64,000 nucleotides of DNA from Aquabacterium soli. Lineage in GTDB: Bacteria > Pseudomonadota > Gammaproteobacteria > Burkholderiales > Burkholderiaceae_C. The translations under genes were made by a program, and so were the position numbers. The stretch spans positions 62,001-126,000 of the forward strand of contig NZ_RSED01000003.1 of the NCBI RefSeq assembly GCF_003933735.1, read 5' to 3'. The notes below the pieces were generated by a model that was given only the letters and a program-made list of their open reading frames with translations, did no database searches and had not been told where the DNA came from. The stretch's first letter is position 1. The number at the start of each line of letters is the position of its first letter. Below are positions 49,507 through 64,000 of this stretch, one piece after another.

Positions 49507-51270
49507 CTACACGGGCTGAGGCTGTTCGCGGTTGAGCCGCACCAGGGCGTCGAATTGCTCCGGCGGCACGGCCTTGCTGAACAGGAAGCCCTGGAAGACG
49601 TCGCAGCCGATGTGCTGCAGGATGCGGTGCTGCTCGGGGGTCTCGATGCCTTCGGCCACCACATCCATGCCCAGGCTGTGGCCCAGGGTGACCACGGTCT
49701 GCACGATGGCGCGGTCCTTGTCGTGCTTGGGCAGGTCGATGATGAAGGACCGGTCGATCTTGAGTTCGCTGGCCGGAAAGCGCTTGAGGTAGCTCAGCGA
49801 CGAGTAGCCGGTGCCGAAGTCGTCGATGGACAGACCCACGCCCAGGGCGCGCAGGTCGTGCATCTGCTGCAGGGCCTTGGCGGCGTCTTGCACCAGCATG
49901 CTCTCGGTCAGCTCCATCATCAGCCAGGAGGGCGGCAGCCCCGTGCTCTTGAGCAGGTGCTGAAGGCGCGTACAGAGCTGGCCATCCTCAAATTGCGGGC
50001 GGGCCACGTTTACCGCGATCTTGAGGTGCTCCAGGCCTTCTTCGCGCCACACCCGGGCCTGGCGGCAGGCTTCGTCGAGCACCCAGGCGCCGATGTCGCC
50101 GATCAGGCCTGACTCTTCAGCAACGGTGATGAAGCGCCCAGGCAGCAGCAGCCCATGCTCGGGGTGCTGCCAGCGCACCAGGGCCTCCGCGCCCTTGATG
50201 GTGCCGGTCTGCAGGCAGACCTTGGGCTGGTAGTGCAGCCGCAGCTCATCGCGCTCCAGGGCGCGGCGCAACTGGTGTGTCAGCGTCAGGCGCTCCAGCG
50301 AGCGGGCGGTCATCTCTTCAGAGAAGAACTCGTAGCGGGTCTTGCCGTTCGAGGCGAGGGCCTTGGAGCAGGCCATGTCGGCGCTCTTGAGCAGGCTGTC
50401 CGCATGGCGGCCATCAGCGGGGGCCAGCGCGATGCCGATGCTGGCGCTCAGGAAGATCGGGTGTCCATCGACCTCGATCGGTTCGGCCAGGGCCTGCAGG
50501 CACTGCTTGGCCAGGTCAGCGGCATTCTCGGCATGGGCCAGATCGGGGATCAGCAGGGCGAAATCGTGGTCGCCCACACGGGCCAGGTCGAGTGCCTCCG
50601 TCGACAAACGCGCCATGCCAGGCAAAGAGGCGAGCAGCCCGGCCAGGCGCAGGGCCACTTGGCGCAGCAGGCTGTCGGCGGCTCGGGGCCCCAGGGTTTC
50701 GCGGGTCTGGCGGACCTGGTCGCAGCTCAGGTGCAGCAGGCCCATGGCGCCATCGCGCCGGGCCAGGGTATGCGGTAGCAGGCCTTCGAGGCGGCGCGTG
50801 AATCGGTCGCGGTTGGCCAGGCCGGTGACGTGGTCCACATAGGCCAGCCTGTCCTGGTAGCGCTTGAAGGCCAGGGTGTTGCGCATGCGGAGCACCAGCT
50901 CGCTGGCATCCACCGGCTTGGCCAGGAACTCGGTGGCGCCCAGCTCCAGCGCGCGCAGCTTGGTGGCCGGATCGCTTGCGGCGGTCAGCACCACGACCGG
51001 TGTGTACTGCAGATCCGGGTCGCCCCGCACGGCGGCCAGGATCTCGAAGCCCGACACCCTCGGCATCATCAGGTCGAGCAGCAGCACGTCGGGACGTCGC
51101 GCCTTGATCAGGGCCAGCGCCGCCGTGGGCTCGTTGCAGGCCACGAAGCGCGTGTAGCCCGCGTCTTCGAGGTGGGTCTGGATGACATCGGTGAGGAGTT
51201 CTTCGTCATCGACCATCATCACCAGCGCTTCATCCCATGGGGCGCTGTCTGGGGAGAAATGAGGGCTCAC
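49507..51270 (-). CDS. Response regulator with REC, degenerate GGDEF and EAL domains
   Basis: A 587-residue regulator. The REC domain has phospho-acceptor D66 in L-L-L-D-L-M-M-P, acidic D21-D22 and K118. The next domain is GGDEF-like, but its signature reads V-G-D-H-D-F, so it is unlikely to make c-di-GMP. The EAL domain keeps E-A-L-V-R-W, E-L-T-E-S, D-D-F-G-T-G and E-G-I-E-T, so phosphodiesterase activity is expected. The GTG at 51270 overlaps the kinase stop (GTGA), and earlier in-frame sequence is a shadow of the kinase. It is probably the output partner of that kinase. Confidence 0.92.
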   Translation of the reverse strand: MSPHFSPDSAPWDEALVMMVDDEELLTDVIQTHLEDAGYTRFVACNEPTAALALIKARRPDVLLLDLMMPRVSGFEILAAVRGDPDLQYTPVVVLTAASDPATKLRALELGATEFLAKPVDASELVLRMRNTLAFKRYQDRLAYVDHVTGLANRDRFTRRLEGLLPHTLARRDGAMGLLHLSCDQVRQTRETLGPRAADSLLRQVALRLAGLLASLPGMARLSTEALDLARVGDHDFALLIPDLAHAENAADLAKQCLQALAEPIEVDGHPIFLSASIGIALAPADGRHADSLLKSADMACSKALASNGKTRYEFFSEEMTARSLERLTLTHQLRRALERDELRLHYQPKVCLQTGTIKGAEALVRWQHPEHGLLLPGRFITVAEESGLIGDIGAWVLDEACRQARVWREEGLEHLKIAVNVARPQFEDGQLCTRLQHLLKSTGLPPSWLMMELTESMLVQDAAKALQQMHDLRALGVGLSIDDFGTGYSSLSYLKRFPASELKIDRSFIIDLPKHDKDRAIVQTVVTLGHSLGMDVVAEGIETPEQHRILQHIGCDVFQGFLFSKAVPPEQFDALVRLNREQPQPV

Positions 51271-63287: not shown

Positions 63288-64000
63288 CACCAGGCCCACC
63301 ACAGAAACCGCAACCGATCCGCCAGGGGCCGCAACCAGGCCCACAGCAGCGGCCGCCAGCCCACGTGCACCTTGGCCTGTCCCATCAGGCCCGGCCGCAG
63401 ATCGTCGGGCAGTGCCCCCTCGAAATCGGCCTGGACCTCAAAGACATTGCGGCCTTCCCGCGCCACACCCAGCGGCGTGATGCGCATCACCTGAAGAGCC
63501 TGGGTGTCCCAGGGCAGGGCAGACAGGGCCATCTGCCCATGCTGGCCCACCTTCACGCGGGCAATGTCGGCCTCGTCGATGTCGATGATGACGCGAAAGC
63601 GCTGAGTGGCGGCGACTGTCATCAGCGCGTCGCCCTGCTTCACTGGCGCACCGATGGACTGGCTCAGGTCGCCCTGGATCAGCACGCCATCGAAGGGCGC
63701 CTTGAGCTGCGAGCGCTTGAGCTGTTCGTCGATCAGTGCCAACTGAGCTTGCGCCTCTTCGAGCCGAGACAGGCTCAGGGCGGCTTCTGCACGGTCAGCC
63801 CGGGTCATGGCGGCGGCGTAGGCGTTGTCCTGTTGGGCGATCTGGCTGGCCCAGCGGTCACGCTCCAGCTTGAGATCCTGCTCGGCCAGGTCGGCCAGCA
63901 CCTGGCCGGCCTTCACGCGGTCGCCGGGGTGCGCATGCGTGGCCTTGATGAATCCATCGGTGGGTGCCGACAGCACGCGCTGCTGCACGCCCTCAATGCG
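63287..64000 (-). CDS. HlyD-like periplasmic adaptor (5' part outside window)
   Basis: The 3' 237 codons of a membrane-fusion protein gene whose start lies beyond the window; the frame is open through base 64000. Visible are the lipoyl half S-A-P-T-D-G-F-I, a coiled-coil region (about 60-100), the second half L-K-A-P-F-D-G-V-L, a beta-barrel and a Trp/Leu-rich hydrophobic C-terminus (W-A-W-L-R-P-L-A). It shares the operon with a second adaptor and an adaptor domain in the M50 fusion, so three lipoyl-type modules serve this locus. A candidate GTG at 63988 is in-frame but lies inside conserved sequence, so it is probably not the start. Confidence 0.85.
   Translation of the reverse strand, partial: RIEGVQQRVLSAPTDGFIKATHAHPGDRVKAGQVLADLAEQDLKLERDRWASQIAQQDNAYAAAMTRADRAEAALSLSRLEEAQAQLALIDEQLKRSQLKAPFDGVLIQGDLSQSIGAPVKQGDALMTVAATQRFRVIIDIDEADIARVKVGQHGQMALSALPWDTQALQVMRITPLGVAREGRNVFEVQADFEGALPDDLRPGLMGQAKVHVGWRPLLWAWLRPLADRLRFLWWAW

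Follow-up and report, generated by a model that had tools for sequence, protein, structure and literature searches.

A four-gene module with a SecA-like ATPase and an M50 fusion as a candidate exporter of LEPR-XLL proteins

A tight gene row in Aquabacterium soli

The stretch analysed here, called the window throughout, comprises 64,000 nucleotides of the Aquabacterium soli genome (bases 62001–126000 of contig 41; 5.42 Mb in total), and it ends in a tight row of seven minus-strand genes that includes a shortened SecA-like ATPase and a LEPR-XLL protein. An initial annotation had described this row from the letters alone. All seven genes were found again, with overlaps of 1–4 bases at five junctions and an 18-base gap at one, and Pfam and NCBIfam agree with the earlier domain calls. 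Four of the overlaps span 4 bases (51267–51270, 53792–53795, 59092–59095 and 61083–61086) and one a single base (63287), while the sole gap separates the LEPR gene from HlyD-B. The start codons read are GTG 51270, ATG 53795, GTG 57943, GTG 59095, ATG 61086 and ATG 63287; four of the genes have alternative, longer in-frame starts.

The conserved unit within this row is a set of four genes: HlyD-A, a PqqD/M50/lipoyl fusion, the shortened SecA-like ATPase and HlyD-B. A reading in which all seven genes form one conserved system is ruled out, because conservation does not extend to the kinase and EAL genes. HlyD-A (63287..64000) contributes its HlyD barrel-sandwich part, the C-terminal 237 of 473 amino acids (aa); its N-terminal half lies beyond the window and looks GAF-like, with no match there in Pfam. 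HlyD-B (57962..59095) resembles periplasmic adaptors, and the HlyD families PF16576/PF13437 match both proteins. The fusion (61083..63287), which we propose as the inner-membrane base, is composed of PqqD, M50 and HlyD_3 parts according to Pfam and NCBIfam and bears a HELAH motif within NANPLQRLDGYH. Its M50 part scores 20.7 bits, under the Pfam cut-off of 27.2, and the HExxH motif and third-ligand region are retained in relatives. Indeed, HExxH is present in all 76 M50 loci surveyed (47/47 of class A and 29/29 of class B, the two classes delimited below), and a single regular expression for the third-ligand pattern matches 47/47 and 17/29, respectively; D305-G-Y is invariant across the 10 aligned class B rows. 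The fusion thus carries the metal ligands of M50/site-2 proteases, with proteolysis itself predicted. At three loci (L152, L153, L154), the PqqD-like and M50 parts occupy two overlapping frames of 143 and about 590 aa.

The SecA-like protein (59092..61086) matches SecA_DEAD, SecA_PP_bind and P-loop_SecA and retains NBD1, PPXD and NBD2 with Walker A, DEAD and motif V/VI. It stops short of the wing and two-helix finger: alignments to Bacillus subtilis SecA stop at residues 600–614, the relatives in which motif VI was found have 57–95 residues behind it, and neither wing domain, complete scaffold nor two-helix finger was found by comparison with SecA. Its closest solved structures are SecA and SecA2, and the motor motifs are retained in most copies. 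In a FastTree phylogeny of 81 proteins, the short copies group apart from housekeeping SecA, given two changes of label (one row labelled housekeeping, L048, a 619-aa frame cut by its contig end, falls inside the short group). This separate grouping rules out a recent duplicate of housekeeping SecA. Phage records gave 25 matches to the SecA-like protein; the five of them listed share 34–37% identity with it and are distant relatives.

Between HlyD-B and the signalling genes lies the putative substrate, a LEPR-XLL/DUF4347/cadherin protein of 1383 aa (53792..57943). Its leader (57842..57907, in VEVLEPKLLYSADLA) is of the Ser type described below. It matches the LEPR-XLL model NF012209 at residues 13–34 with 22.2 bits against a curated cut-off of 17 (29.3 bits in the genome search), which places the protein in this family by its near-N-terminal sequence. 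Just behind the leader, the DUF4347 domain (57254..57763) is predicted to fold like caspase/CHAT peptidases; its closest known systems are the caspase/CHAT/legumain peptidases of clan CD. The motif rule for clan CD cysteine peptidases is a His-Gly/Gly-Cys dyad, here His121-Gly and Gly-Cys164, and the His/Cys motif recurs in 56/56 DUF4347 domains; on fold and dyad, peptidase activity is predicted. A DUF4347 domain has been solved in a type VI secretion system (T6SS) complex (9qpe_G), so DUF4347 is not confined to LEPR giants. The accessible text of one paper discusses a DUF4347 protein as a T6SS effector and calls the domain uncharacterised (PMC8262886).

The window protein terminates in a hydrophobic segment (53981..54043) and a proline-rich tail. 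Among the fetched loci, only the Aquabacterium homologue L024 has such a segment too, and both L024 and the window carry the kinase plus REC-GGDEF-EAL pair. The protein would thus be a membrane-anchored surface sensor in this lineage only, not in general. Open frames of LEPR-XLL proteins reach 19,427 codons in our survey. To our knowledge these proteins are among the largest in bacteria, and no description of how they are exported is known to us.

Recurrence of the module and its association with LEPR-XLL and DUF4347 proteins

The host genome itself holds three diverged copies of the module. A PF07517 search returned four SecA relatives. One, with a frame of 963 aa, is regarded as the housekeeping protein; the other three are short, each embedded in the order HlyD-A, M50 fusion, SecA-like, HlyD-B. 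The copy on contig 24 (C24) is followed by a LEPR/DUF4347 protein and a PAS-GGDEF gene, and that on contig 26 (C26) lies between the C-terminal part of a giant cut at the contig end, which precedes it, and a TolC-like gene of the opposite strand, which comes after it. LEPR-XLL is matched five times in the genome, and DUF4347 domains number four. A class B profile strongly matches only the three module fusions (250–316 bits; next 89), and the host therefore has no class B exporter. Giants lie on contigs 24, 26, 35 and 52 (L007, L008, L018–L021), including a 7,928-codon frame on contig 35; several are cut at contig ends, so the assembly seems to break inside giants.

A first scan of named genomes retained 80 loci, mostly housekeeping SecA, and yielded the four-gene set in Aquabacterium (two), Zoogloea, Rhodoferax, Rubrivivax, another Burkholderiaceae, Ramlibacter, Roseomonas and a gammaproteobacterium. 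One Phycisphaerae and one Opitutaceae genome have it too, their HlyD-B scores being weak; in a Frateuria locus the other parts were found and HlyD-B was unscored. The initial annotation had named as a test whether the parts co-occur only in close relatives. Instead, they recur across Beta-, Gamma- and Alphaproteobacteria, in Planctomycetota and in the Opitutaceae genome.

Among 398 genomes of the host phylum, at least 90 have an M50-fusion match (two candidates were scored per genome), and the scores fall in two groups: class A, with 39 genomes, starts at about 433 bits, and class B reaches 374 at most. The dividing line of 430 bits is our own, placed in the gap that separates these scores in the proteobacterial set; the Planctomycetota scores leave no such gap. 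The survey took in every class A locus listed from genomes other than the host's, 47 in number, and 29 class B loci. The SecA-like gene adjoins M50 in 44/47 class A vs 0/29 class B loci, the 44 including two with fragmented genes (L142, L143), two cut at contig ends (L144, L151), two that each fail one SecA motif by regular expression (L120, L121), one that fails two in a long frame out of register (L031), and L137, L146, L147 and L149, discussed below. Of the class A loci without it, L132 is a contig end, and L130 and L145 lack the gene; gene order differs at a few others (L148, L150, L153, L154). An M50 tree, made like the SecA tree with FastTree only, splits class A from class B with 99% local support. 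Class B is a sister of class A without SecA, yet it also accompanies LEPR giants.

Planctomycetota, the phylum of the Phycisphaerae record L035, gave M50 matches in at least 46/199 genomes (five candidates scored per genome). Of 20 fetched loci, 14 of the 15 at ≥490 bits carry the SecA-like gene, weak at L259 (212 bits) and on the opposite strand at L270; the remaining one ends at a contig edge. Annotated records show the same rows. Methylosinus plasmid pMSC49a reads giant, DUF3467, HlyD, PqqD/M50, SecA-like (annotated 'prepilin peptidase'), HlyD, TolC, and Pontibrevibacter has the same set, its SecA-like gene annotated as a DEAD/DEAH helicase, behind an annotated 31.8 kb LEPR-XLL protein gene. 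The class B order of giant, TolC, HlyD, HlyD and fusion was read on an Azospirillum plasmid and on an E. coli plasmid, whose giant, an Ig-like DUF4347 protein of 3668 aa, bears a leader of the Asp type. Matches limited to the fusion come from additional plasmids, among them those of Escherichia (18 records) and Citrobacter (8 records); L255 is an E. coli IncHI1B plasmid with a class B fusion. The RSP proteins of IncHI plasmids were considered as an experimentally known class B substrate and rejected, since in the accessible text of the sources their export is attributed to the plasmid's type IV system (PMC6764697, PMC8730810).

Module and LEPR/DUF4347 proteins go together at the genome level. 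With thresholds of E up to 0.001 for LEPR-8K and up to 1e-5 for DUF4347, 40 of the 41 LEPR-8K genomes and 75 of the 94 DUF4347 genomes among the 398 also have an M50 match, an association whose p values are inflated by genome relatedness; at genus level the odds ratio for DUF4347 and M50 is 44. LEPR-XLL or DUF4347 is present in 39/39 class A genomes and in 46/51 with class B only. In Planctomycetota, M50 matches occur in 15/16 LEPR genomes vs 31/183 others. Nearer the module, same-strand open frames of ≥900 codons, TpsA-like ones included, lie within 6.5 kb of M50 in 29/47 class A and 18/29 class B loci, and leaders can be reached far upstream, as in G006, where a 14,920-codon frame ends about 0.4 kb before HlyD-A.

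The leader itself tracks the exporter type. When the residues after LEPRxLL were read without presetting them, the next residue was Ser (VENLEPRFMLSGEG, FEPLEERLLLSADF) in 19/19 class A-linked leaders kept and Asp (LALEPRLLFDGAA) in 31/31 class B-linked leaders. The class A figure drops three of 22 regular-expression matches as chance (G121 L, the second of G167 D, G297 A) and is otherwise 19/22; six further matches, each with Asp, come from contigs on which no M50 is known and are excluded. G105 carries an exporter of either class, and each is accompanied by the leader type that belongs to it. The Ser leader is also found in the window, the host's C24 copy, L024, L025, L026, L028, L030, L031, L035 and Pontibrevibacter. 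On the M50 tree (35 rows with a leader), the Ser/Asp state changes once, and the two states therefore represent a single old split, kept since.

Outer-membrane and signalling neighbours

The initial annotation had named no outer-membrane partner, and the gene row of the window lacks one, though relatives commonly have it. Pfam identifies TolC-like OEP proteins and a ShlB/POTRA protein adjoining modules. Beyond these Pfam-checked examples, outer-membrane factor (OMF) and TpsB genes were called with profiles built from them, which places an OMF beside 18/47 class A and 19/29 class B loci and a TpsB beside 10/47 class A loci. Upstream reading reached the 5′ end of 14 class A giants, and an OMF directly precedes 7 of these; L186, one of the 7 without, has almost no upstream sequence. 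The TolC-like proteins of L176, L178, L179 and L181–L183, each immediately before a giant, are 871–1085 aa long, and the three tested (L178, L179, L183) contain AMIN domains. The ShlB/FhaC-type TpsB genes lie at L116, L118–L120, L122–L125, L127 and L128 (L127 Pfam-checked). Where visible, they are followed by second, TpsA-like giants with ordinary Sec-like N-termini, so these TpsB genes may serve a separate two-partner system.

The signalling pair of the window, a hybrid histidine kinase with PAS, HisKA, HATPase, REC and Hpt domains (51267..53795) and a REC-GGDEF-EAL protein with a degenerate GGDEF (49507..51270), is a local partner outside the conserved module. The initial annotation had coupled the state of the LEPR-XLL protein to the breakdown of cyclic di-GMP (c-di-GMP); as a general feature this is not supported, as no same-strand kinase plus REC-GGDEF-EAL pair occurs among the 47 surveyed class A loci within about 9 kb on each side, a span partly filled by giants. 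Such a downstream pair is found in the window and in L024. Looser arrangements include a downstream GGDEF gene in the host's C24 copy and in L050, a REC-GGDEF-EAL-like gene on the opposite strand in L028, a kinase on one side and an opposite-strand GGDEF/EAL-like gene on the other in L131, a weak opposite-strand pair in L112, and a kinase only in L114 and L129.

A candidate exporter weighed against other readings

At the level of sequence, four observations carry the interpretation: the gene set, its adjacency, the co-occurrence with LEPR/DUF4347 proteins, and the leader type that tracks the exporter type. They make it probable, though well short of certain, that the four genes encode a trans-envelope exporter of LEPR-leader proteins, with a SecA-like motor and an M50/HlyD base. 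That LEPR proteins are exported by the module appears well supported by these patterns, and the balance of evidence is for a genuine exporter of LEPR-tagged proteins that is both old and widespread. The dedicated export apparatus of the initial annotation thus stands, through co-occurrence far beyond close relatives, without its general c-di-GMP coupling.

The motor role, the path and the cuts are what we infer from the parts. A cytosolic SecA-like ATPase would engage a leader-bearing protein that has no evident Sec signal and push it through, or past, an inner-membrane complex that HlyD-A forms with the PqqD/M50/lipoyl fusion. Leader binding would fall to the PqqD-like part; PqqD-like domains that bind leaders are familiar as recognition elements of ribosomally synthesised and post-translationally modified peptides (RiPPs). 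The lipoyl parts together with HlyD-B would form a periplasmic duct docking on a TolC-like pore, or in some lineages perhaps on a ShlB-like one. During or after passage, M50, the caspase-like DUF4347 of the substrate, or both may cut. The HExxH motif of all surveyed M50 loci and the predicted fold of DUF4347 lend weight to the earlier suggestion that the system 'perhaps trims' its substrate, with cleavage predicted only. In the window, where the substrate has a conserved C-terminal hydrophobic segment and is accompanied by a kinase and an EAL protein, it may remain anchored and serve as a surface sensor.

A SecA-like protein whose closest solved relatives include SecA2, and which mostly keeps its motor motifs, could conceivably be an accessory SecA2 that passes LEPR giants to SecYEG, with M50 and HlyD acting later or elsewhere. 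We regard this as unlikely. The two-helix finger of SecA contacts SecY, and both finger and wing are missing here; the short copies also stand apart from housekeeping SecA in the tree, and the leaders are less hydrophobic than TpsA N-termini (best 12-residue window 0.9–2.0 in 16 leaders vs 1.7–3.6 in 5 neighbouring N-termini), with ranges that touch. The kinase, REC, GGDEF and EAL genes that the window and near relatives carry would suit a different arrangement, in which a complex of M50 and HlyD, devoted to regulated proteolysis or signalling, senses the surface protein while the giant exits otherwise. Such genes are rare beside the surveyed modules, whereas OMF and TpsB genes are common, and this scheme strikes us as improbable. 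More doubtful still is that the module matures or exports a small RiPP-like peptide and the giants are merely frequent neighbours. The PqqD and M50 parts do resemble the daptide maturation protein NF041824 (E 6.8e-37; 127.5 bits vs a cut-off of 300); the genome-level LEPR/DUF4347 association and the match between leader and exporter types speak against it.

Several observations weigh against export by the module as proposed. SecA may not be an essential motor, because class B, L130, L145 and four motif-less loci manage without an active SecA; the four (L137, L146, L149 and L147, the last cut at a contig end) have the SecA-like gene in place but lack all motifs tested (Walker A, DEAD and motif V/VI) and possibly form a dead-motor subclass. 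Planctomycetota loci at 444–460 bits have the SecA-like gene in 0/5 cases, and nine class B fusions have no PqqD by Pfam. No outer-membrane gene was found nearby in 19/47 class A loci, nor in the gene row of the window. The leader counts depend on assigning each leader to the nearest M50 on its contig, up to 48 kb away, and there are exceptions: the SecA-bearing L077 has Asp, Methylosinus Asn and L270 Thr, and no leader was found in L155, L158 and L159. The single Ser/Asp change is consistent with co-inheritance as much as with recognition. LEPR or DUF4347 also occurs in 20/308 genomes without an M50 match, and a leader lies near the module in just 2/20 Planctomycetota loci. One single-M50 Planctomycetota genome has nine LEPR matches, which suggests service in trans.

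The proposed exporter resembles type I secretion and the tripartite HlyD-TolC machines (LapBCE-like) in its HlyD adaptors, the TolC-like pores by many relatives and very large repeat proteins as likely cargo. It differs in having a SecA-like ATPase and a PqqD/M50/lipoyl fusion instead of a transporter: Pfam finds no ABC, RND or MFS transporter among the seven proteins of the window, the rest of the genome not having been searched for ABC genes. Moreover, the LEPR leader is N-terminal, whereas type I substrates carry a C-terminal signal. With accessory SecA2 systems it shares a second SecA paralogue beside large surface-protein genes; unlike them, its SecA-like protein lacks wing and two-helix finger, is tied to HlyD and M50, and forms its own tree group. 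The daptide-type protein NF041824 is similar in the PqqD plus M50 region only, the window fusion falling under its cut-off and being joined to a lipoyl/HlyD part. Since an inner-membrane engine of SecA-like ATPase and PqqD/M50/lipoyl fusion matches no secretion type known to us, the module would be categorically new. Whether it constitutes a new Gram-negative secretion class is for us an even call. Such a class would have a SecA-type motor uncoupled from SecYEG, an M50/HlyD base and a TolC/ShlB pore, with two subtypes reading their own leaders (LEPRxLL-S vs LEPRxLF-D) and a caspase-like domain that frees or locks the passenger. More cautiously, it could be labelled a variant of the HlyD/TolC tripartite kind. 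No paper on this gene combination was found in the open-access literature searched, most subscription papers and preprints being outside its scope; PMC3482391, considered as a source for a SecA-like secretion module, proved unrelated in its accessible text.

If true, the proposal gives LEPR-XLL giants an export route and the LEPR tag a purpose, and it makes a SecA motor act on something other than SecY. Two 'unknown' labels would also acquire testable functions: DUF4347 as a caspase-like peptidase, and LEPR-XLL, for which the description of NF012209 (LEPR-8K) gives no function, as an export leader with two subtypes.

Other genes accompany the module in places. A small DUF3467 gene lies between the giant and HlyD-A on two alphaproteobacterial plasmids (L248:11732-12052, L249:11845-12126) and is a possible extra component, and a SapC-family gene adjoins the giant in two lineages (L109:6703-7596, L254:1158-1955). 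In the host, the row extends past the window, where a HATPase-like gene (206 aa) and a REC-TPR gene (546 aa) precede HlyD-A on the same strand with gaps of 20 and 13 bases, respectively (longest starts). At the other end, the neighbouring genes adjoining the row (45675–49453) are, as we take them by likeness only, stomatin/SPFH-like, NfeD-like and, on the plus strand, like a pyridoxal-phosphate-dependent basic amino acid decarboxylase.
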